Source: Bacteroidota bacterium (GTDB taxonomy: Bacteria; Bacteroidota; JABWAT01). From it: a stretch of DNA of 64,000 nt. Below the pieces are notes generated by a model that did not search any database, was not told the origin of the DNA, and saw only the letters and a list, made by a program, of their open reading frames with translations. A program made the position numbers and the translations under genes. Positions within the stretch are counted from its first letter, which is position 1; each line of letters begins with the position of its first letter. Shown here piece by piece: positions 28,998 to 64,000 of this stretch. The stretch covers positions 558,001 to 622,000 of the forward strand of contig JAKLJL010000001.1 of assembly GCA_023151185.1 (NCBI GenBank). Reading direction: 5' to 3'.

Positions 28998-31622
28998 ATG
29001 AAATTCATCATTGCGAGTATTTTCCTTTTTGTCCCGTTTCTCTTACATGCACAGTGGTCCTGGGCTCCAATAACCCGGGGAGACACAACCGGCACTTACT
29101 TTCAGCCCATGAAACCATACTTCCTCGATCCGGTTCATTTGCCCTCATTGAAGGTTACTGGTGACAGTCAATCGACTGACGGCAACGGGTCGGGACGTGT
29201 ACACTGGAAAATCTGGGCCTTTGATCAATGGGGAGGTTATACCTTTACCCGGCATCTGGTTCAGAGAAATTCCCCCTATGAACGGATTTATGATTTAAGT
29301 GACTGGAAAACCCTTTCCTTCCGGATTAAAATTGACAGTTTACCTTTCCTTTCTGCTCCCGGAAAATGGCAGATTGAGTTTAAACTGGTTGCACGTGACG
29401 TACCACCCGGAACCGGGGAAAACCGAAGTGTTTACACACTTCCTGATTCTGTTGTGCAAAAAACCGGGGTTTGGCAAAAAGTGAGCGTTCCGCTTGAGTT
29501 CTCTTTCTGGGACCTTCAAAGCGGGGAGCTGACCGGAGAGTTCGACCCGTTCTTATTTAACGGGTTCGACCTTGCTGTGGTTTATCTGCCTTCAGCCGGT
29601 GGGGGAATTGAACCACTGCCATTTGCAGAAGGCGAATTTTTAATTGATCAGATTGAAGTATCGGATCCTGCCTATCCGTCTAATTTTAGGACCGAAAACC
29701 TGGCTGACACCACTTCACAACCCTGGGACCATCCTGCGACATGGGTTCTCTCGGATCGGACAGGGGCCCCGGCTGCTTTGGCGGGCCAGCTTTCCCTTTC
29801 ACTCGATAATAAAGATATAATCGATGGATCTTCATCCCTGCGGGTTGACTATCAGATTCAGACTGAACCGGATTGGGGTGCTTATACTGAATTCAGCCAC
29901 CAGTTCAGAAAAAGTCCTGTTGAAATCTGCCAGGACTTAAAATTCTATTTCAAAAACCTGAAACCTGTGAGTGTAAAAGGCCAGGCGGCTCTGGCGCTTG
30001 TTTTGTGGGACAGGCCAGATTCTTATTCTGAGGAGGAATGCTGGTATTCTTTGGTTCAGGTGAATCTGGATGATACACTTAACTGGCAGCAAATCCGGTA
30101 TGAGCCGTACGATATTAAAAAACCCTGGGATCAACTCAGGCCGGGTGATAAGGGTAGTTCACTCAGACAGGGAAAAAACAACGGGTACCCCGATCTTTCT
30201 TGTCTTACCCGGGTTGGCATGGGCATCCGGGTTTTCGGGGATGAGGCACTTCAAACCGGTATGAACTCTTCTGTTTCGGGATCCTTTCTGATAGACCGGT
30301 TTTCTCAAGCGGTCTCTTCTGCCTGCTGTGAACCCCCTTTTTATATTGATGGCGGAATCACCGGCCTTTATTCAGAAGGGAATGGAACTATTCGGATTAA
30401 CTGGCAGGATGTTGAAGAGGAAGAATCGAACGAATTCTATTCGGTTTTCATCTCACGGTATCCAATTCACGATCTGAGTGAACCTGGAGTTGAAAAAATC
30501 CTGGACCGGATTCCGGAGCACACCGGGACTGCTGTTTTTCAAGTTCCTGTGCCTGAATCGGGACAGATGCTCAGAACCTGGGTGGCAATATCCATCAATA
30601 ATGTGGCCTCTTTTCCGGAATTTAATTCCCCGGTTGATGTTGAAGGAGCCCTGGTCCCGGTTATTGGGTTAACTCCGCCTGCAGGTTTTTTGCCGGATGG
30701 AAACCCGGAGGAATGGAAAGACCGGCCTTTCTGGCACCTTTCTGCAGAAGACAGTACAGCCACGGTTCTCAGGGAATTGAACTGGAGTTCCCCTGGCCGA
30801 ACTGATTTGAGCAGCCAGTCCTGGCTGGCATTCTCCGGGGATTCCCTTTATGGCGCCATTCTTGTGAAAGATGATTGGGTTGAAATGGACGGGTTACCGG
30901 GAAAAACACCTGACTACCCATCGCTTGCGATTGGCCTTTACCCGTACGAAGGTAAAGATCATTACTTTTACCGGCGGGGCATCATCCCCGATTATTACCT
31001 TTCATTCCTGCCGGATCAAATCCTGGTCAATTCAGCAGTAAGTCTGATTCAACAGGGTTCGGGTTATTTCTATGGTAAAACGGATTCGGGTTATGCTGTT
31101 GAGTTCCGTATTTCTCTTTCTGACCTGGCTAAAGCCTTTCCGGGAGATTTCAGGTTTAAACCTGAGAGAGGAATGAGGATCGGGCTGGACTGGGTCATTC
31201 TGGATACCGATCAAGCCGGAATCACAGAATCGGGGTTGCGGTGGGGATACACCCGGACTGCGGATGCAGATTCCCGGATTTCTGGTTGGAAATTCACCTG
31301 GATTGGTCTTCCGGACAGTATTGAAACCGATGTCGGGGAAGATAATTCAAAAAGTCCCGCCCGCTTCACTCTGGAACAAAACTACCCTAATCCGTTTAAC
31401 CCGGAAACCCAAATTCCGGTTATTCTTTCAGCACCCGGAAAACTAAAACTGGAAGTTTTTGACCTGCTTGGCAGGGAAGTTGCCGTTCTGTTCGACGGCA
31501 CACTTCCGGCAGGCCGCCATGTTTTCCCGTTTGACGGCCGTGAAACTGCTGCCGGTCTTTATTTTGTGCGGATGGTTTCAGGTTCTGCTCCTCAGGTCAA
31601 AAAATTAGTCCTGATCCGGTGA
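28998..31622 (+). CDS. T9SS-exported surface glycan-binding protein (CBM11-like, FN3, CBM9-like)
   Basis: ATG 28998 is preferred over 28992 because GGGAG (28987-28991) then lies 6 nt upstream. The 874-aa product starts with a signal peptide ending LLHAQ. Two repeated jelly-roll modules follow (about 20-235 and 240-450), each with a WGGYTFTRH or WGAYTEFSH motif and a DLSxWKxLSFRI-type strand, resembling CBM11-like carbohydrate-binding domains. An FN3-like domain, a CBM9-like domain (PDGNPEEWKDRPFWHL) and a T9SS tail (QNYPNPFNPETQIPV... ending KKLVLIR) complete it. No catalytic site is seen. It is a diverged paralog of the protein at 34277. Confidence 0.78.
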   Translation: MKFIIASIFLFVPFLLHAQWSWAPITRGDTTGTYFQPMKPYFLDPVHLPSLKVTGDSQSTDGNGSGRVHWKIWAFDQWGGYTFTRHLVQRNSPYERIYDLSDWKTLSFRIKIDSLPFLSAPGKWQIEFKLVARDVPPGTGENRSVYTLPDSVVQKTGVWQKVSVPLEFSFWDLQSGELTGEFDPFLFNGFDLAVVYLPSAGGGIEPLPFAEGEFLIDQIEVSDPAYPSNFRTENLADTTSQPWDHPATWVLSDRTGAPAALAGQLSLSLDNKDIIDGSSSLRVDYQIQTEPDWGAYTEFSHQFRKSPVEICQDLKFYFKNLKPVSVKGQAALALVLWDRPDSYSEEECWYSLVQVNLDDTLNWQQIRYEPYDIKKPWDQLRPGDKGSSLRQGKNNGYPDLSCLTRVGMGIRVFGDEALQTGMNSSVSGSFLIDRFSQAVSSACCEPPFYIDGGITGLYSEGNGTIRINWQDVEEEESNEFYSVFISRYPIHDLSEPGVEKILDRIPEHTGTAVFQVPVPESGQMLRTWVAISINNVASFPEFNSPVDVEGALVPVIGLTPPAGFLPDGNPEEWKDRPFWHLSAEDSTATVLRELNWSSPGRTDLSSQSWLAFSGDSLYGAILVKDDWVEMDGLPGKTPDYPSLAIGLYPYEGKDHYFYRRGIIPDYYLSFLPDQILVNSAVSLIQQGSGYFYGKTDSGYAVEFRISLSDLAKAFPGDFRFKPERGMRIGLDWVILDTDQAGITESGLRWGYTRTADADSRISGWKFTWIGLPDSIETDVGEDNSKSPARFTLEQNYPNPFNPETQIPVILSAPGKLKLEVFDLLGREVAVLFDGTLPAGRHVFPFDGRETAAGLYFVRMVSGSAPQVKKLVLIR

Positions 31623-31628
31623 GGGTTC

Positions 31629-32261
31629 ATGAAAAAGCTGGTATTTTTTTGCTGATTTTTCTTCCAGCCTCTGTAAATGCTCATTGGGTCTCGGCACCGC
31701 TTGATTCCGGTCTGGTAACTGCTTCCGGTTACTGGGATAAAATGCCGGGGTACTATTGGGAATTAAATTCAAGCAGAATGATGCATCTTTAGCTTCGGAA
31801 TCGGTTGACGGGCACGGGGCCCTTCGATTTTCTTACCGTATATTTCCCGTCAACAGTTGGGGGGATTATGCGCCGGTTCGCCATACGGTAAGTCCTTCCT
31901 TTAATCCGGTTTCCGGATATGATCTGTCCAACAGCCGGTATCTGAGCTTCTGGATCAAAAATACCAAACCCGGTAAACTGACTGCACCGGGAAAACTGGT
32001 CTTCGATTTCAGTCTGCTTACCCTGAACGAAACCGGACTTACCCTGAAACCCGGATACCGGTTTTTGTTCCTGGTGCCGGGTATTTAACCTGGGAGGTTT
32101 ATGATCTGGCGGGGCGGCAGATTTCTGTTTGTCAGAACTGGTACCTGCCAGGCGAGAACAAAGACATCCTGCACCTGGGTCAGCAGCCAACAGGTCTTTA
32201 CTTTGTCAGGTCTTCCTTTGGCGGGCAATCAACAGTGTCGAAACTCCTGCTTCTTAAATAA
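31629..32261 (+). pseudogene. Decayed third copy of the surface glycan-binding protein gene
   Basis: ATG 31629 starts MKKLVFF and meets TGA after a T-run. One frame over, the signal peptide continues (LIFLPASVNAHWVSAPLDSG) to a stop near 31790. A third frame from about 31756 carries the CBM11-like module (GHGALRFSYRIFPVNSWGDY, SRYLSFWIKNTKPGK). From about 32037 the original frame encodes a T9SS tail (TYPETRIPVFVPG, VYDLAGRQISV, PTGLYFVR, ending SKLLLLK). The second module, FN3 and CBM9-like parts are missing. Roughly 210 codons remain of about 880, split over three frames, so the copy is inactive. Confidence 0.85.
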
Positions 32262-32460: not shown

Positions 32461-32526
32461 ACGTTTGTGGAAGCATTTCCATTCCTGTTTCCACTGTTTA
32501 CCGGATAAAAAACCGCTTCCATTTTT

Positions 32527-32543
32527 TTGGCACGTTGTATGCA
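32527..32543 (+). promoter_or_regulatory. Sigma-54 (RpoN) promoter
   Basis: The sequence TTGGCACGTTGTATGCA matches the -24/-12 consensus TGGCACG-N4-TTGCA with one mismatch, and GG (32529-32530) and GC (32541-32542) are 10 nt apart as required. Transcription should start near 32554. That excludes the ATG at 32547 as the symporter start and points to the GTG at 32583. Confidence 0.8.
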
Positions 32544-32582
32544 TAGATGCGTGCGAACGCAATCAAAAAACCAGGACTCACT

Positions 32583-34211
32583 GTGTTTGAAACTTTCGGC
32601 TTTCTGGATTCAACTGTTATACTGGTCTATTTCGCGGTAACGCTGGGAATCGGCCTGTATTTTGCCCGGAGGAAGGAATCCTCTGCAGTTGATTATTTCC
32701 TTGCCGGACGGAACATCGGGTGGGTTGCCGTTGGTTTTTCTCTGTTTGCAACAAATATCTCAAGTGAACACTTCCTCGGCCTGGCCGGATCGGGAGCAAA
32801 CCGGGGCCTTGCAGTCGGGAGTTTTGAATGGATGGCCATCTTCATTTTGGTTGTGATGGGATGGGTCGTCGCTCCGGTTTTCATCCGGCTGGGCGTGTTC
32901 ACTGTGCCTGAATATCTTGAAATCCGTTATGACCGCCGCAGCCGCGTCTACCTGACCTCCATCTCCCTTTTTGCCTACATTGTCACCAAAATTTCCGTGA
33001 TGCTGTTTGCGGCCGGTTTCCTTCTGAATCATATGCTGGGCTGGGATGTCTACACCACTGCGATTATTCTGGTTTTTCTTGCCGGAATTTACACGGTTGC
33101 CGGCGGACTGACTGCAGTTATTTACACCCAGATCTTCCAGACAGTTGTCCTGATTGCCGGTGCACTTCTGGTGACCTTTATCGGGCTGAATGAAGTCGGC
33201 GGATTTTCGGGACTTCAGGAAAAGCTGCCACCTGATTATTTTACCCTTTTTAAACCCATGTCGGATCCTGATTTTCCCTGGACCGGCATAATTTTCGGGG
33301 CCCCAATTGTGGGTTTCTGGTATTGGTGTACTGACCAGTATATCGTGCAGCGGGTTTTAGCATCGAAAAGCATTGATGACGCCAGAAAGGGAACCCTTCT
33401 GGCTGCTGCGTTTAAAATTCTCCCTGTTCTGATGTTGGTTGTTCCGGGATTGATTGCGGTTGCACTCTTCCCGGACGTTTCCGGAGATGAGGCTTACCCT
33501 GCGCTGCTGGAAAGTGACCTGCTTCCGGCAGGCGTAAGAGGATTGGTTGTTGCCGCCATCATTGCAGCCTTAATGTCTTCACTGGCAAGTGTGTTCAACA
33601 GTGCCGCCACCCTGTTCACCGTTGATTTTTACCAGCCCCGTCACCCCGAAACCTCCGAAAGAAAGCTGGTTCTGGTTGGACGCCTTGCCACCCTTTTTAT
33701 CACAATTACTGCTATCCTTTGGGTTCCGCTGACCAAACTGATTTCGACGAATATTTACATTTACATGCAAAGTATTCAGTCTTACATCAGTCCACCCATT
33801 GTTGCCGTCTTTCTTTTTGGTATCTTCAGTAAAAAAATGAATGCTTCAGGGGCATTCTGGTGCCTGATAACCGGTGGTGTTCTGGGTCTTTCCCGGCTGG
33901 TTATTGAGTTCATGGTGAACTCAGGAACTCTTACAGCGCCATGGGCAGTCAGTTTTGCCTCGCTGAATTACCTGCATTTTGCTATTTTGTTATTTTTACT
34001 ATGTACGGGTGTCCTGATTGCTGTCAGCCGGTTGACTGACAGCCAAACCACACAGCAGGCATCCGGACTGATGATTGCCGGGAAACAAATCCCGGACTCT
34101 TCCTATGCCCCGCTTCCGGCAAAAAAAACCGGCAGGTGGGCTAAACAGAATGTGTTTACATCAGTCATCATCTGTGTGCTTGTCATCAGTCTGATGGGAT
34201 TACTGGCATGA
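32583..34211 (+). CDS. Sodium/solute symporter (SSS family, sugar-type)
   Basis: The GTG at 32583 is chosen because AGGA lies 6 nt upstream and the predicted sigma-54 start point is downstream of the ATG at 32547. The product is about 542 aa with 13-14 membrane helices. Family motifs are YFLAGRNIGWVAVGFSLFATN (first part), ISSEHFLGLAGSG, GGLTAVIYTQIFQT, WYWCTDQYIVQRVLASK and the SSLASVFNSAATLFT segment of sodium binding. It resembles the sodium/glucose branch and probably imports a monosaccharide released by the locus enzymes across the inner membrane. Confidence 0.9.
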   Translation: MFETFGFLDSTVILVYFAVTLGIGLYFARRKESSAVDYFLAGRNIGWVAVGFSLFATNISSEHFLGLAGSGANRGLAVGSFEWMAIFILVVMGWVVAPVFIRLGVFTVPEYLEIRYDRRSRVYLTSISLFAYIVTKISVMLFAAGFLLNHMLGWDVYTTAIILVFLAGIYTVAGGLTAVIYTQIFQTVVLIAGALLVTFIGLNEVGGFSGLQEKLPPDYFTLFKPMSDPDFPWTGIIFGAPIVGFWYWCTDQYIVQRVLASKSIDDARKGTLLAAAFKILPVLMLVVPGLIAVALFPDVSGDEAYPALLESDLLPAGVRGLVVAAIIAALMSSLASVFNSAATLFTVDFYQPRHPETSERKLVLVGRLATLFITITAILWVPLTKLISTNIYIYMQSIQSYISPPIVAVFLFGIFSKKMNASGAFWCLITGGVLGLSRLVIEFMVNSGTLTAPWAVSFASLNYLHFAILLFLLCTGVLIAVSRLTDSQTTQQASGLMIAGKQIPDSSYAPLPAKKTGRWAKQNVFTSVIICVLVISLMGLLA

Positions 34212-34276
34212 GATTTCAGTCCGGTAATGATCACCTCGAATCGCAATCAACACCAAACAACTCATGGAGAATAAAC

Positions 34277-36925
34277 ATGAAACGACTGCTTACGACGCTG
34301 TTCGCACTTACTGCGATGGTCAGTCTGGCTTCCGCTCAATGGGCATGGGCCCCTCTGAACACAGGCCAGGGAAGTGACGAAACCTACGTTCCTTCGAAAG
34401 AAAACGCAGGTTATTATGATAACGGTCCGACAGCTTACTGTAAAATTTCTGATACTACTGTTTCCAAAGACGGCAAAGGCGCTTTCCACGTGAAATACCG
34501 TGTTGAAGCCGGCGACGGATGGGGCGGTTATGTAGTACGCGTTCACTTTAATGATCTCGCAACTGTTGGAAAAGCTGGATATTATGATCTTCAAGCCGGT
34601 AAATACCTGAGCTTCTGGATTAAAAACACGGTAAAACCAACTAAAGATCAGGCTGGTGACGTGAATTTTGAATGGAAACTGAAAGAAAAAGGCCTGACTG
34701 ATGGTGGTGAAGACCGTTGGGTTAAAGGATTCGGAACTATTCTGGAATCCTCACCGGATGAATGGACCCAGTTTACAGTTCCTCTGGAAGGTTCCGAGTG
34801 GAGCCGCCAGGCTGGAGATGCTGATGGAGAATTTACCCCATGGCAAACTTTCGGCTGGGAATTCGCAGTTGTTTACATTACTGCCGGCGGTGGAGCTACT
34901 CCTCCTGCAGTGACCGGTGAATTTATTCTTGACAACGTTCAGATTCTGGATCAACGGTTTACACCGGTTATGTCTTTCGACAACCAATCTGACACCACAT
35001 CCAACCGTTCCCGTAAAGATGCTACCTGGCTGCTCAATGATATGAGCTGGGATGGTGCTGCCGGTGCCCGCAAAATGGTTCTTTCCAATGAATCTGTTGA
35101 TACGGTTGAAGGTCTCGGTGCCATGAAGGCTGAATATGCCATCGTGGGTTCACAGGACTGGGGCGGATATGCTGAACTGGAACACGTTTTTGAAACTCCG
35201 GTTGATCTTTCCACCAATTCCGGTTTTGCTCTTTATGTTAAAACTCTGGTTGCCAATCAATTAACCGGCCGGTTTATGCTTCGTCTGGATGTTACCGATG
35301 AAGTAAACGGTGCACAGGAAATGTGGACAACCGTCATTAATGCTGATGTTGATCACGTTACCGACTGGCAATATGTTCAAATGCCGTTTGAATTAACCGA
35401 TACAGCCTGGACCAATCTGAAACCCGGTCACACCGGATTTACCAAACGGGAAGGGAATAACAACGGAATATTCGATCAGGATAAGATTAAAAAACTCCGG
35501 ATCGGGTTTATTGTTCTTCATAAAGCCGGTGAGCCTGTTGGTCCTAACGTAATCGCCAGCGGTACTCTTCTGTTTGACCTCTGGACACCAACCGGATACA
35601 GAGATATCGATATTACTGCTCCCGATCCTGTACAGGATGTTCTGGGTCTTGCAATTGAAGATGGCAAAAACTCTATCGTCTGGACTGATAATTCCGGCGA
35701 AGAAAAAGAAAAATACAATGTGTATTACAGCTATCAACCGATGACTGAAGACACTGATCTGAATGGTGAAGGCGTATTTGCCCTTGCTTCCCTGATCAAC
35801 GAATCAATCGGATCTGCCAGCCACGTCTTCTACAATCCGTTGGTACCGTCTACCTTCAAACATTACTATGCTGTTAACTGTGTTGACAAATCCGGTAATG
35901 TAGGAAAGCCTGGAGTATCTCCTGATGCAGTCTCGGGTGTTTCTAAAGCTGCTCCTGTTGTCAGCGATATGGCACCGGCTAACTTTGCTGCTGATGGCGA
36001 CCTGTCTGACTGGGCTTCCATTCCTGGCTGGACTCTGAAGATTTCTGATGGTTCCGCTACCGAAATCAATCCATCCTCCTGGGATATTGCAGATGACAAC
36101 GATGCTTCCATGGAAGCCAAAGTTGCCCTGGCCGATGGTAACCTTTATGTTGCCATGAAAGTAACTGACGACATCTATTTCGTGGATGCAACCAAAGCTT
36201 CCTATGAACAGGATGCTCCAGATTTGTTTATCGGTCTGTACAAATACCGCGGCAAGAACCATGTTGGATACAAGAGAGGTGAAACACCTGATTACCACTT
36301 CCGTTTCAACTTTGATAAAGTGACCAACGACCTGAACGGTACAACCGTTGCCGTACCCGGTGACAACTACAAATGGCTTCAAACTGCTACCGGATACACT
36401 CTGGAATGGAAAATGCCGATCGCTGATATGCTGGCCCTCTATGCCGGTGATGTCGCCACTTATGAAGTTGGCGATATGATTCCGCTTGACTTCATCCTGA
36501 ACGATGCCGATGAAACCGGCGCCCGTTCCGGTGGTCTGCGCTGGTCAGCCAGCAATGAAGATAACGGATGGAACAATGTAACTTCCTGGGCTTATACCTG
36601 GGTTGGACATAATGGTACCGATTTCAAATTCGTCAGTGTAGAAAACAATGGTTCTGCACCGGTAGAATTTGCTCTGAACCAAAACTATCCGAACCCCTTC
36701 AACCCTGCTACCACGATTCCTTTCAGCGTAAAGGTAAGCGGTAATGTTTCTCTGAAGGTTTACAACGTTCTGGGTGCTGAAGTTGCAACCCTGTTCAACG
36801 GATACAAAGAAGCTGGAAAACATGTTCAGTCCTTCGATGCCTCCAGTCTGTCCAGCGGTGTTTACTTCGTCCGCATGAATGCAACCGGATATACCTCAGT
36901 CATCAAAATGATGTACCTGAAGTAA
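34277..36925 (+). CDS. T9SS-exported surface glycan-binding protein, highly expressed type
   Basis: ATG 34277 follows GGAGA and gives a signal peptide MKRLLTTLFALTAMVSLASA, so upstream in-frame codons from 34208 are not used. The 882-aa protein has two CBM11-like modules (DGWGGYVVRVHF with KYLSFWIKNT, then QDWGGYAELEHVF), an FN3-like domain (about 460-560), a CBM9-like domain (FAADGDLSDWASIPGW, GNLYVAMKVTDDIYF) and a T9SS tail (QNYPNPFNPATTIPF ... IKMMYLK). No enzyme motif is seen. Codons are unusually biased (Arg CGT/CGC rather than CGG), suggesting heavy expression. It probably captures polysaccharide at the cell surface. Confidence 0.82.
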   Translation: MKRLLTTLFALTAMVSLASAQWAWAPLNTGQGSDETYVPSKENAGYYDNGPTAYCKISDTTVSKDGKGAFHVKYRVEAGDGWGGYVVRVHFNDLATVGKAGYYDLQAGKYLSFWIKNTVKPTKDQAGDVNFEWKLKEKGLTDGGEDRWVKGFGTILESSPDEWTQFTVPLEGSEWSRQAGDADGEFTPWQTFGWEFAVVYITAGGGATPPAVTGEFILDNVQILDQRFTPVMSFDNQSDTTSNRSRKDATWLLNDMSWDGAAGARKMVLSNESVDTVEGLGAMKAEYAIVGSQDWGGYAELEHVFETPVDLSTNSGFALYVKTLVANQLTGRFMLRLDVTDEVNGAQEMWTTVINADVDHVTDWQYVQMPFELTDTAWTNLKPGHTGFTKREGNNNGIFDQDKIKKLRIGFIVLHKAGEPVGPNVIASGTLLFDLWTPTGYRDIDITAPDPVQDVLGLAIEDGKNSIVWTDNSGEEKEKYNVYYSYQPMTEDTDLNGEGVFALASLINESIGSASHVFYNPLVPSTFKHYYAVNCVDKSGNVGKPGVSPDAVSGVSKAAPVVSDMAPANFAADGDLSDWASIPGWTLKISDGSATEINPSSWDIADDNDASMEAKVALADGNLYVAMKVTDDIYFVDATKASYEQDAPDLFIGLYKYRGKNHVGYKRGETPDYHFRFNFDKVTNDLNGTTVAVPGDNYKWLQTATGYTLEWKMPIADMLALYAGDVATYEVGDMIPLDFILNDADETGARSGGLRWSASNEDNGWNNVTSWAYTWVGHNGTDFKFVSVENNGSAPVEFALNQNYPNPFNPATTIPFSVKVSGNVSLKVYNVLGAEVATLFNGYKEAGKHVQSFDASSLSSGVYFVRMNATGYTSVIKMMYLK

Positions 36926-36939
36926 TTCTGACCTCTTTT

Positions 36940-36967
36940 CAGCCGCCTGCAGGTCTGCAGGCGGCTG
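36940..36967 (+). terminator. Strong hairpin after the surface-protein gene
   Basis: A perfect 13-bp inverted repeat (CAGCCGCCTGCAG and its complement, 2-nt gap) begins 14 nt after the stop at 36925. Only a short T-poor stretch (ATCTGTTCC) follows, so it may act as a partial terminator or an mRNA 3'-end stabiliser separating the abundant surface-protein message from the receptor genes. Confidence 0.6.
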
Positions 36968-37000
36968 ATCTGTTCCTCCAACCTAACCTGTGAAGTCAAC

Positions 37001-48304: not shown

Positions 48305-48317
48305 CTACGGAAATATG

Positions 48318-50534: not shown

Positions 50535-50597
50535 TGTGAGGAGTTCCCGGCAGGGAGACCTGACGGGAGATGACTGAAAGCAGCAAAGCAGTTGACT

Positions 50598-54811: not shown

Positions 54812-56125
54812 ATGGCATCTGCAGCGCCTTCAACGGCAACAAAGGGAACCTACAGTACCACCAATGGCACCAATTATACCGGTGCTCTGACAGTTTTAAC
54901 CTCACTGTTTTTTATGTGGGGATTTATTACCTGTCTGAATGATATTCTCATTCCGCATCTGAAGGCAGTTTTTGATCTGAATTACACTCAGGCCATGCTG
55001 ATTCAGTTTACTTTTTTCACCGCCTATTTTATTGTGTCTCTTCCTTCAGGGTATCTGGTTGAAAAGGTGGGGTATAAATCGGGAATCATTATTGGGCTTG
55101 CAACTGCCGGTGCCGGCTGTCTCATGTTTTACCCGGCTGCCGGTGAACGGTCTTATCCCATTTTCCTGACGGCTTTGTTTGTTTTGGCCTCGGGAATTAC
55201 CCTTCTTCAGGTGGCTGCCAATCCGTATGTGGCAATTCTGGGAAAACCGGAAACTTCATCAGCCCGTTTAAATCTGACCCAGGCCTTTAATTCACTGGGA
55301 ACTACGATTGCCCCGTACTTTGGTGCTCTGGTAATTTTATCACAGGCTGTCAAAACCACCGAAGAACTGGCCGTTATGGACCCGGAAGCCAAATCCCTTT
55401 ATCAGGCTGCAGAAGCTGCTGCGGTTCAGAATCCCTATCTGGGACTTGCTGCTGCACTTTTTGTAATTGCGGTTATCATTGCTCTTTTCAAACTACCGAA
55501 AATTGAAGCAGCAGATCAGCAATCATCCGCCGGCGGCAGTCTGGATCATCATCACGATTCTGCCTGGGGGTACCGTCATCTAATTCTGGGTGCAGTCGGA
55601 ATTTTCGTTTACGTCGGTGCTGAAGTTTCCATCGGAAGCTTTCTGGTCAACTACCTCAGTTTGCCCGAAATTGGCAACATGGTTGAATCTGAAGCAGGAA
55701 AATATGTCTCGTTTTACTGGGGTGGAGCCATGGTCGGCCGGTTTGCCGGATCTTACATCCTGACCCGGATCCAGCCGGGAAAAGTTCTGGCGTTCAACGC
55801 TGCTGCTGCTGCGCTGCTGGTTATTGTGACCATGCTGACCAACGGACAGGTGGCCATGTGGTCGGTTCTGATCATCGGGCTGTTCAATTCAATCATGTTC
55901 CCGACTATTTTTACTCTTGCTGTTGACGGACTCGGAAAACATACCGGTCAGGGTTCCGGAATCCTGTGTATGGCAATTGTCGGCGGTGCATTGATTCCTC
56001 TGTTCCAGGGCATGCTGGCTGATCAGATCGGAATTCATCATGCCTTTATTCTGCCTGTACTGTGTTACGGCTTTATCGTATATTACGGGCTGAAAGGTCA
56101 CAAAGCCGATCTGGCTGCGGCCTGA
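54812..56125 (+). CDS. FucP-type MFS sugar permease
   Basis: The 437-aa protein has about 12 membrane helices and the FucP/GluP family motifs [32 protein letters not shown]-like ([18 protein letters not shown]), [34 protein letters not shown] and [14 protein letters not shown]. These carriers import L-fucose, glucose or galactose with protons. The start ATG at 54812 has GGAG upstream. A non-hydrophobic loop with HHHHD-type residues separates the halves. It would move monosaccharide released by GH3 or GH92 into the cytoplasm, where the ROK kinase follows. Confidence 0.92.
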
Positions 56126-56156: not shown

Positions 56157-57128
56157 ATGTCAAAATCCTGGATCGTGTTGGGTGTGGATATCGGCGGGAC
56201 GACAACCAAATTTGGTTTTGTGGATATGTTTGGTGAAGTTTTTCTTGAAAGTTCACTGCCAACCCGTGCCGATGAACCGGCTGAATTTCTGATCGACCGT
56301 CTGCATCAGGCGGTTGAAACCCAATGGGATTCCATGGATGAGGGGTATCAGTTGGTTGGAATCGGGATGGGAGCCCCCAATGCAAATTATTATAAAGGTA
56401 CGGTTGAAAATCCACCGAATCTGAAATGGGGAGTGGTTAACCTGGTTGATCTGCTTCGCCAGTATTATCCTGAAATACCGATCCGTCTGACGAATGATGC
56501 CAACGCTGCAGCTCTGGGTGAAGGTCAGTTCGGTGCCGCACAGGGGCTCAGAGATTACATTGTAATTACCCTGGGTACCGGACTTGGCAGCGGAATCGTT
56601 GCCAACGGGCAGATGATTTACGGTCATGACGGATTTGCAGGCGAAGTGGGACATACCATTGCGGTCAGGAACGGCAGAAACTGCGGATGCGGAAGAAAAG
56701 GCTGTCTTGAAACCTATGCATCGGCTTCCGGAATCCGGAGAACGGTTATGGAACTTCTGGCAGAGAAAACCGAACCCAGTGAACTCAGATCCATTCCGTT
56801 TTCGGATATGAATGGAAAAGTTATCGCAGAATCGGCCAAACGGGGTGATCCCCTTGCCTGGGAAGCTTTTCAAAGAACCGGAAAAATTTTAGGAACTGCA
56901 CTTGCCGATGCTATCAGCTACACCAGCCCCGAAGCCATCATTATGGTTGGGGGTCTGGCACAGGCCGGTGATATCCTGTTTAAGCCGACACGGGAAGCCA
57001 TGGATGCCAATACCCTGAATATTTTCAAGGGCAAAGTCAAACTGCTTCCCTCCGGATTGAAATCCGGAAATATTGCTATTTTAGGGGCAGCAGCCCTGAT
57101 CTGGCATGAAATTCTTCAGTCAGAATAA
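56157..57128 (+). CDS. ROK-family sugar kinase (glucokinase-like)
   Basis: The 323-aa protein has the phosphate-1 motif GVDIGGTTTKFGFVD, then GMGAPNANYYKG, LTNDANAAALGEG, YIVITLGTGLGSGIV and the ROK signature HDGFAGEVGHT. The CGCGRKGCLETYAS zinc-binding Cys cluster follows. Substrate-binding Glu and His are in EVGHT. Phosphorylation of glucose is most likely, but ROK kinases of mannose or N-acetylmannosamine share these motifs. AGGA precedes the ATG, and the gene ends at a terminator. Confidence 0.93.
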   Translation: MSKSWIVLGVDIGGTTTKFGFVDMFGEVFLESSLPTRADEPAEFLIDRLHQAVETQWDSMDEGYQLVGIGMGAPNANYYKGTVENPPNLKWGVVNLVDLLRQYYPEIPIRLTNDANAAALGEGQFGAAQGLRDYIVITLGTGLGSGIVANGQMIYGHDGFAGEVGHTIAVRNGRNCGCGRKGCLETYASASGIRRTVMELLAEKTEPSELRSIPFSDMNGKVIAESAKRGDPLAWEAFQRTGKILGTALADAISYTSPEAIIMVGGLAQAGDILFKPTREAMDANTLNIFKGKVKLLPSGLKSGNIAILGAAALIWHEILQSE

Positions 57129-57220: not shown

Positions 57221-60200
57221 GTGAAGAATAATCCAAACAGAGAAAAGTACCGGTTTGTCCTGATACTGGCACTGATCGTTCAGGTCAGCACTGCAAGTTC
57301 ACAGGTTCTCAGACTCAACGAGGCAGCATCCGTTAATCCCGGATATCTGACTGACGGTGACGGAGACTCACCTGATTGGTTTGAAGTGGTTAACCCTGAG
57401 CTTTCGGCAGTGAATCTGACTGGCTGGTCGGTTACCGATGACCGGAAGGAGCCGGGGAAATGGGTGTTTGCCAATGGTCTTCTGCAACCATCCGAACGGC
57501 TGGTGGTTTTTGCATCCGGGAAAAACAGATTTCCGGAAGTTTCCGGCTGGAATACAGTCATTGCCAACCAAAATGCCTGTAAATATACCATCGGCTCTGC
57601 CTCACTGTCACCTTCCTGGCGCTTTCGTCAGTTCAGCGACACCGGCTGGCTGGATGGAAAAGTTTCTGTCGGTTTCGGGGATAATGATGATGCAACTGTC
57701 ATTTCCGCAACTGGCTCGGTATTTATCCGGATTCATTTTTCGATAGAAGACACTGCCCTGATTCAATCGGGATTTCTTTTTGCGGATTATGATGATGGAT
57801 TTGTTGCCTGGCTGAACGGAGCAGAACTTGTGAGGGCCAATATGGCAGGGGTGAAGGACACCCCGCCGGCGTGGAATGCCTATGCCGCTTCAATTCATGA
57901 AGCTGCCATGTACTCGGGCGGTAAACCGGATAAATTTCAGCTTGCCAAATTCACTCACCTTCTTGTCCCTGGTGATAATGTTCTTGCTGTTCAGGTTCAC
58001 AATTCAGACGCCGGTTCCTCTGACCTGACGTTTATACCGTTCCTTGTTTTCGGAATGAAATCGGGCGGTAATTCCGGGAAACCGCTTCCGGCTGTCTGTG
58101 AGGTCCCCCGCCAGGAGTATCACACCAATTTCAGTTTGTCCTCCTCGGGTGAAACTATTTTCTTCATTCATCCGGATGGCACAACAGCAGATTCAGTCAC
58201 CCTTCCGGCTATGACCTCCGGACTCTCCTGGGCCCGGATTCCGGATGGAAGTGAGTTCTGGCAGCTCACCCAGGTTCCTACACCGGGTCAACCTAATCCC
58301 ACTACCGGGTTTCCCGGTGCGGCACCACCGGTTCAACTGGCTGTTACAGGAGGTGCCTTTACGTCGCCCTTTCAGGTACCGCCTCCGGTTTCTTCATCCG
58401 GTGAAACCATCCGGTATACACTGAACGGAATGGAACCAACAGCCTCCTCTCCGGTTTTTTCGGCAGCAGTTCCTATTTCAAAAACATCTGTTCTGAAAAC
58501 CCGTTCTTTTAAATCCGGCTTCCTGCCGGGGCCGGTAACCACCGAAACCTTTTTAATCAGCAGCCCCCATAAAATTCCGGTAATTTCTATTTCAGTTGAC
58601 TCCCTGTGGTTTTTTCAGCCGGATACCGGAATTTATGTTATGGGTCCAAATGCAAGCGGCAGTTTTCCTTACTTCGGAGCCAATTTCTGGCTGGATAAAG
58701 AAGTACCGGTCTGCTGGGAACTGTTTGATGAGACAGGTAAAAAGCAAACACAGTTTGGCTCTGGTCTTAAAATTTTCGGTGCCTATTCACGGGGACAGGC
58801 CCAACGGTCTTTTGCCCTGTTTGCCCGCCCGCAATATGGCAGCAAGGAATTTGACTTCCCGCTGTTTCCGGGCAACCCGGTCAGTTCCTTCCAAAGTGTT
58901 GTCCTCCGTAATTCAGGAAATGACTGGGCCTATTCTGGAATCCGTGATTACCTGACCTGCCGCCTGACTGAAAATCTGGGCGTTGACCGGCTTCAGTCCC
59001 GGCCGGTTTCCGTTTATCTGAACGGGCGGTACTGGGGTGTTTACTTCCTGATGGAAAAAACCAGCGAACATCTTATTGCAGAACGATACGGATTCCGGCC
59101 GGAATCCATGGAAATGGTGGAACTGGGTTCTGGATGGGGTGAATTCCGGGCTTTTAATGGCACCGCAGATGCCTGGAACAGCTTTTATGACTGGCTTGCC
59201 GGAAAGGATATGAATTCACCCGAGGTTCAGGCTATTATCCGGGCCCGGATGGATGTGGAAAATTTTATGGCTTATCAGGCCGTGAACATCTGGATCCTGA
59301 ATAATGACTGGCCCGGGAATAACTACAAATTCTGGCGGTCAGTGAACCCGGTTACACCGTGGAAATGGATCCTGTATGATACAGATTTCGGATATGGTCT
59401 TTTTAACGGCAACGCCTACTCAGTCAATGGAATTGAATTTGCTTCGACGGAATTGGGTGACCCGTTCTGGCCGAATCCTCCCATTTCAACCTATTTATTC
59501 CGTAGATTGCTCGAGGGTGAGGCCTTCCGGAATCTGTTTATCAATACCGCCATGGATCTGATGAATTCCCGTCTGAAGTCCCAGGCAACACAGTCGATTC
59601 TGAAAGAGATTAAAAACGAAGTTTCTGCCGATATGGTTCATCAGCGGATCCGGTGGGCTGCTGATATGCAGGGAAATTGGTCTGATCAGGTTGCTTCAAT
59701 CGGGAATTTCCTGTATAACCGGAATCAGTATATGCTGCTCCATCTTTTCCAGATGATTAAAAAAGGCGGAACCGGAATCGTCAACCTGACCGGTGATCCG
59801 GAAAAGGGAAGCATCCGCCTTAATTCCCTGACTCTGACCCAGGCGACTTTTCAGGGACCGTACTTTTCTGAGATTCCGGTGACCATCTCGGCGGTACCCA
59901 AACCAGGTTACCGGTTTACAGGCTGGACAGGAACCCTTTCAGATACGTCCCGAACCCTGACTCTGAAACCGCCAACAACTGGTTTATATCTTACGGCTGT
60001 TTTTGAGCCGGCTTTTTCACAGGAAACCCTGATCTCATTCAATGAGATCAACTATAATTCAAAACCCGGTTCAGGAACCGGAGACTGGGTTGAATTCGTC
60101 AATTCGGGTAGCCTTTCGGCTGATCTTTCGGGATGGGTGTTTAAAGATGAGGATAATGCTCATTCCTGTCTGATCCCCACCGGTACCCTGATTCCGCCAG

Positions 60201-60802
60201 GTGGGTTTCTGGTCATCGCAGAAAGACCGGATACACTTTTAAAGCGGTTCCCGGGAAAAAATATTCTGCCGGTTGCACTTACTTTCGGGTTCAGCGGATC
60301 CGGTGAAGTTTTAAGACTGTATAAACCGGATGGTTCACTTGCGGATTCGGTTCATTATCTGGATTCAGATCCCTGGCCTTCAGAAGCAGACGGGACCGGA
60401 AAAACCCTCGAAAAAATCAATCCGGGAAAACTTTCTTCCGATCCGGTAAACTGGAAATCCGGTTCGGATGGCGGTACCCCGGGAAGCACCAACAGTGTCT
60501 TTGTTTCAGTGGACCAACCGGTTAAAAATCAGCAGCCTTCAACTCTGACTCTTGCCGGAAACTTTCCGAATCCGTTTAATCCCGAGACCACCCTGCAGTT
60601 CTATTTGCCGGGTCCCGGGGTTGTTTCATTCGAAATTTACGAGGTAACCGGCAGACGGGTCTCAGCTTTTCAACGGAATTATCAGGAAGCGGGGAGGAAA
60701 GAAATTTCGTGGAAGCCTGAAAATATAGCCAGCGGAATTCTGTTTTACCGGCTTTCCTGGAAAAACCAGAGTCAAACCGGTAAAATGCTGTTACTCAAAT
60801 AG
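57221..60802 (+). CDS. T9SS-exported CotH-family protein with lamin-tail domains
   Basis: A GTG at 57221 gives the only frame with a full signal peptide (FVLILALIVQVSTASSQ). The 1193-aa order is: a lamin-tail domain (about 28-110: LRLNEAASVNPGYL, DWFEVVNPELSAVNLTGWSV), a jelly-roll module, a chitobiase-C-like segment (GETIRYTLNGMEPTASSPVF), a CotH kinase-like domain (about 450-790: YWGVYFLMEKTSEHLIAERYG, ILYDTDFGYG), an InlB B-repeat-like segment (PKPGYRFTGWTGTLSDTSR), a second lamin-tail domain (FNEINYNSKPGSGTGDWVEF) and a T9SS tail (NFPNPFNPETTLQF). CotH homologues include protein kinases, but activity here is unproven. Confidence 0.83.
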   Translation: MKNNPNREKYRFVLILALIVQVSTASSQVLRLNEAASVNPGYLTDGDGDSPDWFEVVNPELSAVNLTGWSVTDDRKEPGKWVFANGLLQPSERLVVFASGKNRFPEVSGWNTVIANQNACKYTIGSASLSPSWRFRQFSDTGWLDGKVSVGFGDNDDATVISATGSVFIRIHFSIEDTALIQSGFLFADYDDGFVAWLNGAELVRANMAGVKDTPPAWNAYAASIHEAAMYSGGKPDKFQLAKFTHLLVPGDNVLAVQVHNSDAGSSDLTFIPFLVFGMKSGGNSGKPLPAVCEVPRQEYHTNFSLSSSGETIFFIHPDGTTADSVTLPAMTSGLSWARIPDGSEFWQLTQVPTPGQPNPTTGFPGAAPPVQLAVTGGAFTSPFQVPPPVSSSGETIRYTLNGMEPTASSPVFSAAVPISKTSVLKTRSFKSGFLPGPVTTETFLISSPHKIPVISISVDSLWFFQPDTGIYVMGPNASGSFPYFGANFWLDKEVPVCWELFDETGKKQTQFGSGLKIFGAYSRGQAQRSFALFARPQYGSKEFDFPLFPGNPVSSFQSVVLRNSGNDWAYSGIRDYLTCRLTENLGVDRLQSRPVSVYLNGRYWGVYFLMEKTSEHLIAERYGFRPESMEMVELGSGWGEFRAFNGTADAWNSFYDWLAGKDMNSPEVQAIIRARMDVENFMAYQAVNIWILNNDWPGNNYKFWRSVNPVTPWKWILYDTDFGYGLFNGNAYSVNGIEFASTELGDPFWPNPPISTYLFRRLLEGEAFRNLFINTAMDLMNSRLKSQATQSILKEIKNEVSADMVHQRIRWAADMQGNWSDQVASIGNFLYNRNQYMLLHLFQMIKKGGTGIVNLTGDPEKGSIRLNSLTLTQATFQGPYFSEIPVTISAVPKPGYRFTGWTGTLSDTSRTLTLKPPTTGLYLTAVFEPAFSQETLISFNEINYNSKPGSGTGDWVEFVNSGSLSADLSGWVFKDEDNAHSCLIPTGTLIPPGGFLVIAERPDTLLKRFPGKNILPVALTFGFSGSGEVLRLYKPDGSLADSVHYLDSDPWPSEADGTGKTLEKINPGKLSSDPVNWKSGSDGGTPGSTNSVFVSVDQPVKNQQPSTLTLAGNFPNPFNPETTLQFYLPGPGVVSFEIYEVTGRRVSAFQRNYQEAGRKEISWKPENIASGILFYRLSWKNQSQTGKMLLLK

Positions 60803-60810
60803 GAAAACCA

Positions 60811-61542
60811 ATGAAATCAATCAGGGTTATCTTTGTCCTTCTTTTTGCTGGTCTTGCGGGATGCAGCCAGCTTGCTCCACTTGGAACCGGACAGTCTGAA
60901 CAGCATTTTTCGGGTGAGTATGTCAGAAAGGTGGAACTGGGATATCTTTTATATCTTCCCGAACCCTATAAGAAGACCGAACCCGATTCCTGGCCTTTGG
61001 TTGTTTTTCTTCATGGTTCAGGTGAACGGGGAACTGATCTGGCAAAAGTTGCTGTACACGGACCTGCCCGGCTGGTCAATGAGGGAAAACAATTCCCCTT
61101 TATTCTGGTATCACCCCAATGTCCTGAAGGAGTTTGGTGGAATCCGGAAGATATCATGGCCCTCATCCGGGAAATCCAGGAAAAATACCGGGTTGATTCC
61201 ACCCGGATATATATCACGGGATTAAGCATGGGCGGTTACGGAACCTGGGATTTAATTGCCCGCTATCCGGGATTTTTTGCTGCGGCAGTTCCGGTTTGCG
61301 GAGGTGGTGAACCCAAACTGATGCGGTTTGCAACCGAAACACCTGTTTGGGCATTTCACGGCGGGAAGGACAATGTGGTCCTGCCCGAAGAGTCAAAAGC
61401 AATGGTTGAGGCTTTGACTAAAGCCGGCGGCACTGCAAACCTGACTTTATATCCGGAAGCAGGCCATGATGCCTGGACGGAAACCTATTCAAATCAGGAG
61501 GTTTATTCCTGGCTTTTATCTCATCAGAAAGGTAAAAAATAA
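60811..61542 (+). CDS. Lipoprotein esterase/phospholipase (alpha/beta hydrolase)
   Basis: The 243-aa protein has a lipoprotein signal with lipobox LAGC (Cys18), so it is lipid-anchored in the periplasm or at the outer membrane. The alpha/beta-hydrolase core shows PLVVFLHGSGERGTDL, SPQCPEGVWW, and the nucleophile elbow GLSMGGYGTW (S139). GGKDNVVLPE follows with the Asp and EAGHDAW with the His. The family includes acetyl-xylan and feruloyl esterases as well as PHB depolymerase-like lipases. In this setting a carbohydrate esterase role is plausible. It starts 8 nt after the CotH gene. Confidence 0.82.
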   Translation: MKSIRVIFVLLFAGLAGCSQLAPLGTGQSEQHFSGEYVRKVELGYLLYLPEPYKKTEPDSWPLVVFLHGSGERGTDLAKVAVHGPARLVNEGKQFPFILVSPQCPEGVWWNPEDIMALIREIQEKYRVDSTRIYITGLSMGGYGTWDLIARYPGFFAAAVPVCGGGEPKLMRFATETPVWAFHGGKDNVVLPEESKAMVEALTKAGGTANLTLYPEAGHDAWTETYSNQEVYSWLLSHQKGKK

Positions 61543-61572
61543 ACCGGCTTTTTGTGGATCTGTGGAGGGATT

Positions 61573-62484
61573 ATGAAATTGAAATGGTTCATGCTTTTTT
61601 TAATGTCAGGAATTTTCTGGACGGCTTTCAGTCAGCCCCAGACCGGCCGGATTTCCGGACGGGTATTTGATAATATGTCGGGGAAGACAATTTCCCAGGA
61701 AATGGTGCTGCTTTATCACGGTGAAAAACAGACCATGTCTGCCCGGACAAATCAAAGCGGGAATTTCAGTTTCATCTCTCTTGAACCCGGTGAATACACA
61801 CTCCGGATTGGGCGTTCAGGGTACCAGGCTTTCCTCAGAAAAGTAAGAGTCAATCCAAATTTCACCTCTAAAATTGAAGTAACTCTGAAACCCATGCAGG
61901 CAGATGAGAAAAAGGGAACCCCTGCTGACGGGGAGGTTTCAGCTCCCAAAACAGAGGTAGCTGCTTCTGTGCCTTCTACCCCACCACCTGTGACCGGAAC
62001 CAGGCAGGATTTGCCCACCCAACCTGAAAAAACAGAAAAGGAACCGGTTCAGGTTGCAGAACCTGCACTGCAAACTTCCCAGGAAGTAACGACTGGGTTA
62101 ACAACGTCTGAATTGCCCGTTATTCCGGAATCCATTGAGGAAATTCAGGCCGAAACTGTGGCGAGTGCCAGTGAATTTGAAACGGAATATTATGATGCTG
62201 TTGAAGATCAGCCTGAACCTGTTGGTGGCTGGAGAGCACTCATGAAAAACATAACCTACCCCCAGATTGCGGTCAGGATGAATGTTCAGGGAACTGTTTA
62301 CCTGCAGGCGTGGGTCAGTGAAACCGGTGAAGTGACCAGTTTGTCTGTTCAGAAATCCATCCCTGTCCTTGATTTTGCAGCTCAGGATGCAGTTTATAAA
62401 ACCAAATTTACACCCGGCAAAATTGGTGGAAATCCGGTTCCCGCCAAAATCACCATCCCGGTTGTTTTTAAGCTGGCAAAATGA
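61573..62484 (+). CDS. Secreted CarboxypepD_reg-TonB_C fusion protein
   Basis: ATG 61573 follows GGAGGGA, while an in-frame GTG at 61552 would precede it without a site. The 303-aa protein has a cleavable-looking signal peptide (MLFLMSGIFWTAFS). A CarboxypepD_reg domain follows (GRISGRVFDNMSG, FISLEPGEYTLRIGRSGYQ), then a Pro/Glu-rich linker and a C-terminal TonB domain (YPQIAVRMNVQGTVYLQAWV, TKFTPGKIGGNPVPAKITIP). A typical TonB has an uncleaved N-terminal anchor and no CarboxypepD_reg domain. This one may be a periplasmic adaptor rather than an energiser. It overlaps the next start by 4 nt. Confidence 0.82.
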   Translation: MKLKWFMLFLMSGIFWTAFSQPQTGRISGRVFDNMSGKTISQEMVLLYHGEKQTMSARTNQSGNFSFISLEPGEYTLRIGRSGYQAFLRKVRVNPNFTSKIEVTLKPMQADEKKGTPADGEVSAPKTEVAASVPSTPPPVTGTRQDLPTQPEKTEKEPVQVAEPALQTSQEVTTGLTTSELPVIPESIEEIQAETVASASEFETEYYDAVEDQPEPVGGWRALMKNITYPQIAVRMNVQGTVYLQAWVSETGEVTSLSVQKSIPVLDFAAQDAVYKTKFTPGKIGGNPVPAKITIPVVFKLAK

Positions 62485-64000
62485 AAAAAACACTTCTTTC
62501 AGTCAGTCTTCTGGCTGGTATCACCCTTCAGCTTTCTGCTCAGGATATGACTTATTCAGGGGGCAGAGGTAGTTATTTCAGTAAAAAAATCTATTCCGGC
62601 GGTGACCTGCCGGTTTTCCCGGAGTCCAGGAAATTACTTCCAGAACCTGTTCTGAGTGCAAATCCGGGGTACATCCGGCTTTACTGGAAGGCCTGGGAAC
62701 TTGCCTTCGCCCATTTTAAACGGCCACCAGCCGGATCTCCGTTCGTTTCGAATTTTATTGACGAGGCATTCTCGCCGGCTGTTTTTCAGTGGGATACCTT
62801 TTTCATGGTTGAGTTTGCCCGGTATGGCCATGCCGTATTTCCGGCCATTAATTCTCTGGATAATTTTTACTGCCGGCAGTGGGATGACGGATTCATCCAC
62901 CGTGAAATTCAGGAAAAGGATGGGATGGAATTCTGGTTTGAAGGTCCACAGCATGGGGTAAATCCGCCGCTTTTCGCCTGGGCTGAGGTTGAATCCTGGA
63001 AACTGACGGGGGATAACTCCCGGTTTAAACAGGTCTATCCGGTTCTGATCAAGCATGCAGAATGGCTCGAAAAAAACAGAAAGGCAACTCTTTCCTTTCA
63101 CCATTTATACTGGAATACCGGTCTGGGATCCGGAATGGATAACACACCGAGAGGCGGATCGGGTTGGGTGGATATGTCAGCCCAGATGGTCATGGTATAC
63201 AACAGTCTGGCGGTTATTGCCGATGCAACCGGCAAGCCGGATGAGGCAGAAGCACACCGGAAAAAGGCTTCCGAAATCGGTGAAGCGATGAACCGCTGGA
63301 TGTGGAATGAACAGGATGGTCTGTATTATGATGTTGATAATGACGGACATCAGATCAAACATCAGACAATTGCCTGTTTCTGGCCGATGCTGGCTGGAAT
63401 CTGCTCGAAATCTCAGGTTGAGAAACTGCTCGGAAATTTGAAAAATCCGCATACTTTCTGGCGCACCAATGTGTTTCCGTCACTGGCCGCCAACCATCCT
63501 GACTTCAAAGCCGACGGGCAGTACTGGCAGGGTGGCGTCTGGGCTCCGACCAATGTTATGGTGATGAAAGGGCTTGACCGGTATGCCGGCGTGTACAATA
63601 CCACCGAATTTGGTGTTCTTGCCACTGAACGGTACCTGGACAATCTGCTCGAAGTGTATCAGAAAACCGGAACCATCTGGGAAACTTACTCTTCTGAGGC
63701 AGCTCTGCGGGGAAGCTGGTCACAACCTGATTTTGTTGGCTGGAGCGGTTGCGGACCGATTCAACTGCTGATTGAAAATTGCCTGGGCTTCCGGCCCGAT
63801 GGAGCCGGCAGGAAACTGGTCTGGTATGTGAACCGGATCGACGAACATGGGATTAAAAACCTGACTTTTGGCGGGATCACAGCCTCGGTTATTGCTTCAT
63901 CCCGGCCTGATGTGAATTCCGGTTTTACCGTTACCGCAACAGCATCTGAGGCCTTCTCACTGACCCTTCATTTCAATGAACAGAATGCACGTCACTGGAA
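62481..64000 (+). CDS. GH63/trehalase-like glycoside hydrolase (3' truncated)
   Basis: The frame opens at ATG 62481, overlapping the previous stop, and runs beyond the window end (506 codons seen). A signal peptide (LLSVSLLAGITLQLSAQ) precedes an (alpha/alpha)6-barrel region with PAVFQWDTFFM, HREIQ, FWFEGPQHGVNPPLFAW, YWNTGLGSGMDNTPRGG and WVDMSAQMVMVYNSL. The C-terminal part has DGQYWQGGVWAPTNVMVMKG and GWSGCGPIQLLIE. These correspond to the trehalase/GH63 and mannosylglycerate-hydrolase-like families, which cleave alpha-linked glucosides or related bonds by inversion. Presence of a T9SS tail cannot be judged because the end is missing. Confidence 0.82.
   Translation, partial: MKKTLLSVSLLAGITLQLSAQDMTYSGGRGSYFSKKIYSGGDLPVFPESRKLLPEPVLSANPGYIRLYWKAWELAFAHFKRPPAGSPFVSNFIDEAFSPAVFQWDTFFMVEFARYGHAVFPAINSLDNFYCRQWDDGFIHREIQEKDGMEFWFEGPQHGVNPPLFAWAEVESWKLTGDNSRFKQVYPVLIKHAEWLEKNRKATLSFHHLYWNTGLGSGMDNTPRGGSGWVDMSAQMVMVYNSLAVIADATGKPDEAEAHRKKASEIGEAMNRWMWNEQDGLYYDVDNDGHQIKHQTIACFWPMLAGICSKSQVEKLLGNLKNPHTFWRTNVFPSLAANHPDFKADGQYWQGGVWAPTNVMVMKGLDRYAGVYNTTEFGVLATERYLDNLLEVYQKTGTIWETYSSEAALRGSWSQPDFVGWSGCGPIQLLIENCLGFRPDGAGRKLVWYVNRIDEHGIKNLTFGGITASVIASSRPDVNSGFTVTATASEAFSLTLHFNEQNARHW

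Follow-up and report, generated by a model that had tools for sequence, protein, structure and literature searches.

The locus and its three-gene core

We analysed a 64,000-nucleotide stretch of DNA (the window) from a genome labelled Bacteroidota bacterium (assembly GCA_023151185.1, contig JAKLJL010000001.1, positions 558,001 to 622,000). A preliminary description had pointed to a polysaccharide utilisation locus (PUL) without SusD, with a TonB-dependent receptor gene at 37001 followed by genes for a 1138-residue protein and a PorV-like barrel. Our gene map agreed with this description, and the families named in it were found at their places. The three genes, designated T, V and P, are the following.

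37001-39643, + strand: T, TonB-dependent receptor of the triad clade (PF13715, PF07715, PF00593)
39659-43075, + strand: V, all-beta surface protein of 1138 amino acids with calcium motif, containing fibronectin type III (FN3) (AlphaFold2 model; no Pfam family)
43089-44114, + strand: P, outer-membrane barrel of the PorV/PorQ family, FadL-like (NF033709, 205.5 bits)

The host genome (3.74 Mb, 97.7% complete) contained zero matches to SusD (PF07980). A SusD homologue as the true, hidden partner of T was looked for and rejected, since no PF07980 gene was found in the genome and no SusD-like gene recurred beside T. With moderate confidence we regard the locus as a glycan-utilisation operon whose outer-membrane importer is the T-V-P triad. 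The triad appears to be previously undescribed: no description of it, or of a SusD-less receptor-PorV unit, was found in searches of the open-access literature.

Conservation and distribution of the triad

A scan of 84,980 species genomes yielded at least 544 relatives. The best 80 loci were analysed; these are the ones nearest to the V of the window and not a random sample. A search of 148 genomes belonging to the phylum of the window supplied twenty further loci, selected so as to be varied. A complete T-V-P set on a single strand was present in all 86 V loci that had sequence on both sides (86/86). T was located within 300 bp of V in 89 of 93 loci, and P lay directly downstream of V, again within 300 bp, in 87 of 92. 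One sampled locus had the order T-P-V. The T-V-P order is far beyond chance, and as a unit the three genes are strictly conserved.

The best 80 loci came from Ignavibacteriota (Melioribacteraceae, Stygiobacter and others), Calditrichota, Neomarinimicrobiota/Fidelibacterota, Stahlbacteria, Rhodothermaceae (Rhodothermota) and metagenome-assembled genomes labelled Bacteroidetes. The triad was also found across the window's own phylum, and it recurs in dozens of bacterial families. SusD was detected in 80 of the 148 genomes sampled from this phylum as defined by GTDB. A strong V match (E < 1e-50, a threshold set in this analysis) was obtained in 61 of the 148, of which 34 had SusD and 27 did not. 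The triad had been proposed as a distinct uptake architecture of bacteria of the Fibrobacteres-Chlorobi-Bacteroidetes (FCB) group outside Bacteroidota. Its recurrence was borne out (86/86 loci), its restriction to non-Bacteroidota was not: because SusD-rich families share the phylum of the window (80/148 genomes), that label does not hold in the GTDB taxonomy. Since a SusCDE operon has been reported in Melioribacter roseus (PMC3534657), both systems can coexist in Melioribacteraceae.

Homologues of V, T and P recur in the host genome at C25, C21, C11:456-463k, C24 and C20, and the genome carries six diverged triad copies. The possibility that the triad is limited to the operon of the window was rejected on account of these further copies. 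At the start of C22 (L031:109-6658) two almost identical V-like proteins of 1106 amino acids are encoded in tandem at a contig end, with no T or P in view.

Properties of the three proteins

T carries a CarbopepD_reg_2 domain (PF13715), a plug (PF07715) and a barrel (PF00593). Its score on the SusC/RagA model TIGR04056 was 68.6 bits, far under the cut-off of 368.25. A tree was built from 37 triad receptors, including the T of the window, and 13 other TonB receptors of the host genome. The triad receptors occupied one side of a branch (Shimodaira-Hasegawa-like approximate likelihood ratio 93; 0 of 500 shuffles were as low), with the exact root unsure because of long branches among the non-triad receptors. 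The host genome's own triad receptors were scattered over the triad branch as old paralogues, and the T of the window grouped with receptors of Melioribacteraceae and Ignavibacteria. T is a TonB receptor of a clade that, in the sampled set, was seen only beside V and P.

V has a signal-peptide-like leader. It belongs to no Pfam family and to no NCBIfam family above cut-off, and sequence searches of the PDB returned only weak matches to the PorU tail and to Fn3. The AlphaFold2 model (pLDDT 82.7, pTM 0.77) consists mostly of beta strands and loops. Foldseek gave no global PDB match for it and no SusD among the matches listed; the local matches, all with low TM scores, were to FN3 chains, PorZ, PorU and GH116, PorZ (5m11) being the best. 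V as a member of a known enzyme or binding family was rejected, since Pfam, NCBIfam, PDB and Foldseek searches gave weak or local matches only. The calcium motif noticed earlier in this protein proved to be real: all 87 V homologues had at least one DxDxDG/DxNxDG loop, with a median of 2, as compared with a mean of 0.2 in shuffled sequences.

P scored 205.5 bits on the PorV/PorQ family model NF033709 (cut-off 90), which places it in this family. It is neither PorV nor PorQ proper, as both equivalog cut-offs were missed; the score was higher for PorQ (NF033711, 98.1 bits, cut-off 220) than for PorV (NF033710, 66.7 bits, cut-off 250). The AlphaFold2 model (pLDDT 88) is a FadL-like barrel, and its nearest PDB folds are the PorV structures 8gl6 and 6h3i of the type IX secretion system (T9SS) translocon.

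The C-terminal tail of V and its co-occurrence with P

The host genome has the SprA translocon and PorU sortase genes that mark the presence of a T9SS (SprA_N, E 1.5e-76; PorU, 756 bits, cut-off 420), and a separate PorV-family gene adjoins PorU. In known systems of this type PorV receives Type A tails from SprA and passes the proteins to PorU, which cuts the tail.

The C-terminal domain of V spans approximately residues 1036-1138 and belongs to what we call the VVPNPY class. The final 100 residues of V make up a domain of seven strands and show the PNP and C-terminal motifs typical of T9SS sorting domains. The tail of the window V did not match the Type A models TIGR04183 and PF18962 at E 0.01; the tail of a distant V paralogue at L026 reached 24.6 bits on the Type A model, whose cut-off (TIGR04183) is 23 bits. 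The Type B models TIGR04131 and PF13585 gave no match either, and the partner belongs to the PorV/PorQ family instead of PorP/SprF. In profile comparison the VVPNPY and Type A classes were homologous yet distinct (hhalign 94.7%, E 6e-8). One V paralogue tail matched PorZ (37 bits, E 1e-9). A specifically PorU-like nature of the tail was rejected because the end of the PorU model matches dozens of tails in the genome. As judged from these profiles, the tail is its own class of T9SS-type C-terminal domain; it had been taken for an ordinary T9SS tail, a view that did not survive, since the class is separate and travels with P.

Of 108 V proteins with a VVPNPY-class tail, 105 had P alongside; the other three lie on short locus fragments starting inside V, from paralogues with relatives of T-P-V order. 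Some V homologues bear an ordinary Type A tail (NYPNPF) instead; for all 11 such proteins, from nine loci and four families, both P and T were missing from the neighbourhood:

Type A-tailed V loci: L030 (two proteins), L194, L195, L196, L197, L230, L231, L233 (two proteins), L235

Genome G267 has both tail kinds (L230 and L232); its other V combines a VVPNPY tail with a full triad, the rule being obeyed each time. It is uncertain whether the more distant V-like proteins encoded at L028 and, at a contig end, at L031 follow this rule. Such a rule is what would be expected if VVPNPY tails had P as the carrier or anchor specific to them.

The operon around the triad

From 32547 to the end of the window all genes have the same direction and are separated by gaps of -4 to 108 bp; 32547-64000 is one co-directional operon. 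The first gene, whose actual start is 28992 and not the one assigned before, is separated from the rest by 924 bp. The features besides the triad are listed below.

22649-24124, - strand: sigma-54 activator response regulator (Pfam)
24111-27275, - strand: PAS hybrid histidine kinase (Pfam)
27292-28782, - strand: HATPase protein (Pfam)
28992-31622, + strand: secreted surface protein with Type A T9SS tail (TIGR04183, 35.4 bits)
32547-34211, + strand: SSF sodium:solute symporter, inner membrane (PF00474, E 5e-94)
34208-36925, + strand: surface protein with a family 9 carbohydrate-binding module (CBM9) and Type A T9SS tail, directly upstream of T (PF06452, CBM9_1, E 5e-15; PF18962, E 6e-11)
44126-45955, + strand: glycoside hydrolase (GH) of family 16 with malectin domain and Type A tail (PF00722, E 5e-30; PF11721; PF18962; TIGR04183, 37.9 bits)
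45971-48304, + strand: GH2 with Type A tail, surface exo-glycosidase (PF02836/PF02837; TIGR04183, 38.5 bits)
48315-50534, + strand: GH3, signal-peptide-like leader, no tail (PF00933, E 1e-68)
50592-52463, + strand: PpiC-type peptidyl-prolyl isomerase (PF00639)
52572-54770, + strand: GH92 alpha-mannosidase, signal-peptide-like leader, no tail (PF07971, E 2e-144)
54812-56125, + strand: major facilitator superfamily (MFS) permease (PF07690)
56157-57128, + strand: ROK-family sugar kinase (PF00480, E 1e-62)
57221-60802, + strand: CotH/LTD surface protein, weak T9SS tail (PF08757, E 9e-42; PF18962, 20.4 bits, below cut-off)
60811-61542, + strand: alpha/beta hydrolase, lipoprotein-like leader (PF00326, PF01738)
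61552-62484, + strand: TonB-type protein with carboxypeptidase-regulatory domain (PF03544, E 1e-18)
62481-64000, + strand: GH63/MGH1-like glycosidase, continuing beyond the window end (PF22422, E 7e-37)

The division of enzymes described before was confirmed, with Type A tails on GH16 and GH2 and leaders without a tail on GH3 and GH92, as were the SSF and MFS permeases and the ROK kinase. Of the CBM11/CBM9-like T9SS proteins CBM9 was upheld, together with its tail; CBM11 was not, as Pfam gave CBM9 only. GH16 has the lichenase-like active-site motif EIDIE and is predicted to be a surface endo-glucanase. GH3 is probably a periplasmic beta-glucosidase, and GH92 and the PpiC-type isomerase are probably periplasmic as well. 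The TonB-type protein is a possible energiser. The product of 28992-31622 clusters with the CBM9 protein of 34208-36925 as a member of the same family, and is a probable glycan-binding accessory. The enzyme set suggests mixed-linkage beta-glucan or a mannose-containing glycan as the putative substrate.

The divergent genes on the minus strand (22649..28782) are probable local regulators. HATPase and response-regulator genes of similar kind adjoin the mannan triad locus L024 and occur also in L231. A sigma-54 promoter upstream of the operon was rejected: the single site, at 32528-32543, had one mismatch and was no better than chance.

Related loci have comparable gene contents. Glycan markers besides SSF and MFS were present in 63 of the 80 loci, many of the remainder being short contigs. 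These loci carry GH3, GH130, GH94, sugar ATP-binding cassette (ABC) transporters, LacI regulators, ROK and SSF. The CBM9 protein cluster was found in 66 of the 80, the SSF symporter in 23. For the 20 varied loci the list of families was headed, after the Type A tail, by LacI, sugar ABC, alpha-amylase, GH130 and rotamase. The C21 triad of the host genome is accompanied by GH26 and a mannan-binding-type surface protein.

Proposed mechanism and alternatives

The explanation we favour, and consider rather probable, is that V is exported by the T9SS, kept on P via its tail, and serves T as a capture protein or lid, that is, as a work-alike of SusD. V would pass through the Sec system and then the SprA translocon. 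P, proposed to be the dedicated anchor or shuttle of V, would take V from the translocon by its C-terminal domain and keep this domain bound and uncleaved, as PorQ keeps PorZ, and V would stay tethered beside T. Surrounded on the surface by CBM9 proteins and enzymes with Type A tails, V would present oligosaccharides to T and cover T, as SusD does for SusC, and TonB energy would draw the ligand in through T. GH3 and GH92 would complete digestion in the periplasm, and SSF/MFS and ROK would finish uptake. The CBM9 proteins, GH16 and GH2 would be displayed by the general PorV/PorU route. There are precedents for uncut T9SS tails: that of PorU is retained on PorV and that of PorZ on PorQ, and cognate PorV-like barrels have been proposed to shield tails from cleavage (PMC10202324). 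Because P is closest to PorQ and the tail of a V paralogue matches PorZ, we suggest that P retains V by way of a tail that is left uncut.

Several observations weigh against this explanation. No carbohydrate-binding module was recognised in V, and its physical contacts with T and with P are ones that we infer. The Type A-tailed V homologues are mostly shorter than V and fall into few ortholog groups, therefore the tail rule amounts to a handful of independent events; moreover, the tail classes were scored on the same sequences that were used to build the models. One triad copy (2089-17694 of L025, C11:446000-465900) is in a peptide-type locus, and the C24 triad (L026:8984-19901) lies directly downstream of a ribosomal-protein/rpoA cluster beside GWxTD-domain proteins. 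The neighbours in L025 are a T9SS-tailed S51 peptidase (cyanophycinase family), an M14 carboxypeptidase, Asparaginase_2, a dipeptide-epimerase-like MR_MLE protein, a DcuC carrier and RpiR regulators, which make it a candidate locus for the utilisation of cyanophycin or isoaspartyl peptides. For the C24 triad a housekeeping function, with another ligand, is possible.

A carbohydrate-only role of the triad was rejected because of L025, and the idea of a carbohydrate-specific locus type had to be given up with the peptide and ribosomal settings. Triads without a carbohydrate link had been named beforehand as evidence that would speak against a PUL function; the two host copies are of this kind, yet 63 of 80 loci have glycan markers. 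Since the settings span glycan, cyanophycin/peptide and ribosomal/GWxTD neighbours, the triad is, judging from gene content, a putative general importer module, mostly but not only for glycans.

Alternatively, V and P could be a self-contained anchored protein and its barrel, merely co-regulated with T; V would bind substrate or form a surface layer, and T would import alone or with a CBM9 partner. CBM9-family secreted proteins are encoded directly upstream of T in many loci, Type A-tailed V homologues do without T, and the contact between T and V is something that we infer. On the other hand, T accompanies VVPNPY-tailed V even where there is no CBM9 neighbour (e.g. L025 and L026), and the triad receptors form their own branch. 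We think this alternative unlikely, though worth keeping in mind.

It is more doubtful still that P is an ordinary copy of the PorV shuttle, adding secretion capacity only, and that V is passed to PorU, cleaved at its tail and linked to lipopolysaccharide like Type A proteins. Membership of P in the PorV/PorQ family and the resemblance of the PNP and C-terminal motifs of the V tail to Type A tails are consistent with such a route. Against it stand the coincidence of tail class and P, the Type A-tailed proteins of the same operons that have no P of their own, and the higher score of P on PorQ than on PorV.

Least probable is a general envelope or assembly module (e.g. for export or outer-membrane maintenance) only recruited by PULs, which would suit the copy between ribosomal-protein genes and GWxTD proteins, the recurrence of peptidyl-prolyl isomerase (PPIase)-type genes nearby and a fold principle recalling BamG holding BamH beside BamA (PMC12611786), but most copies accompany glycoside hydrolases, phosphorylases, sugar ABC transporters, LacI regulators or peptide-degradation genes, and six diverged copies in one host genome are what substrate-specific importers would be expected to show.

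Comparison with known systems

The triad locus resembles SusCD loci in having a TonB receptor with CarbopepD_reg and plug domains, a large surface protein as neighbour, glycoside hydrolases and inner-membrane permeases. The linkage to glycoside hydrolases and sugar permeases is present in the window and absent from some triads; like SusCD, the triad is used mostly, not solely, for glycans. It differs in that T scores far under the SusC model cut-off, the host genome has no SusD gene match, V is a beta-rich T9SS-type protein and not a helical lipoprotein, with no SusD homology or shared fold detected, and there is always a third protein, the barrel P.

The triad has in common with PorZ-PorQ and PorU-PorV that a barrel of the PorV/PorQ family goes together with a surface protein ending in a T9SS C-terminal domain. 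PorZ is matched by some V tails, and the tails of PorZ and PorU are retained on the barrel (PMC10202324), retention of V being putative. Outside the tail V has no sequence match to PorZ or PorU; it is multicopy, and its gene is linked to those of a TonB receptor and of nutrient use. For Type B proteins, the shuttle and anchor on which they depend is a PorP/SprF partner encoded adjacently (PMC9143113, PMC12618676). The triad is similar in that its surface protein has a tail of a special kind and the gene for the dedicated outer-membrane partner follows immediately, but the V tail does not match PF13585/TIGR04131, P is of the PorV/PorQ family, and the unit includes a receptor. The structurally known BamG-BamH-BamA complex also has a surface protein that is docked next to one barrel by another, of FadL fold (PMC12611786). 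In that complex the docked protein, BamH, is a lipoprotein and the neighbouring barrel is BamA; the score of P on the BamG model is weak (25.7 bits, cut-off 250).

The triad thus combines the work of SusCD with the anchoring logic of PorZ-PorQ, and it tested negative as SusC, as SusD and for tails of Type A or Type B. Whether T-V-P represents a separate class of outer-membrane nutrient importers, widespread in Bacteroidota and other FCB phyla seems to us evenly balanced. Such importers would have a T9SS-delivered lid on a PorQ-like barrel via a third class of T9SS sorting domain, would serve glycans, peptides and probably other polymers, and would fill the SusCD gap in lineages without SusCD. 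Among polymer-degrading bacteria, susCD is reported to be scarcely detected in Ignavibacteriales gene clusters and not at all in Kapabacteria (PMC10576277). The triad, together with the genetic rule linking tail and partner, is a concrete candidate for the import of large oligomers by such bacteria; it can serve as a marker for PULs missed by SusCD-based searches, and it suggests a third T9SS tail/carrier pairing.

Other observations

PPIase-type genes recur beside triads (50592-52463; L024:7889-9295), cluster 1 being found in 26 of the 80 loci. Part of the cluster members have no recognised domain (no Pfam match). They are possibly folding helpers for surface proteins.

A 2.9-kb copy of window positions 34199-37084, 89% identical, is located about 44 kb downstream (L033:169-3057; C11 ~636170-639060). 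It covers the gene of the CBM9 surface protein along with the beginning of T, which is joined there to an open reading frame for a PQQ/BamB-like beta-propeller. This is a recent partial duplication of the locus.

The G+C content of window positions 1-8000 falls to 27%, as compared with 46-50% further in, and the gene layout suggests that this segment is a laterally acquired surface-polysaccharide island.

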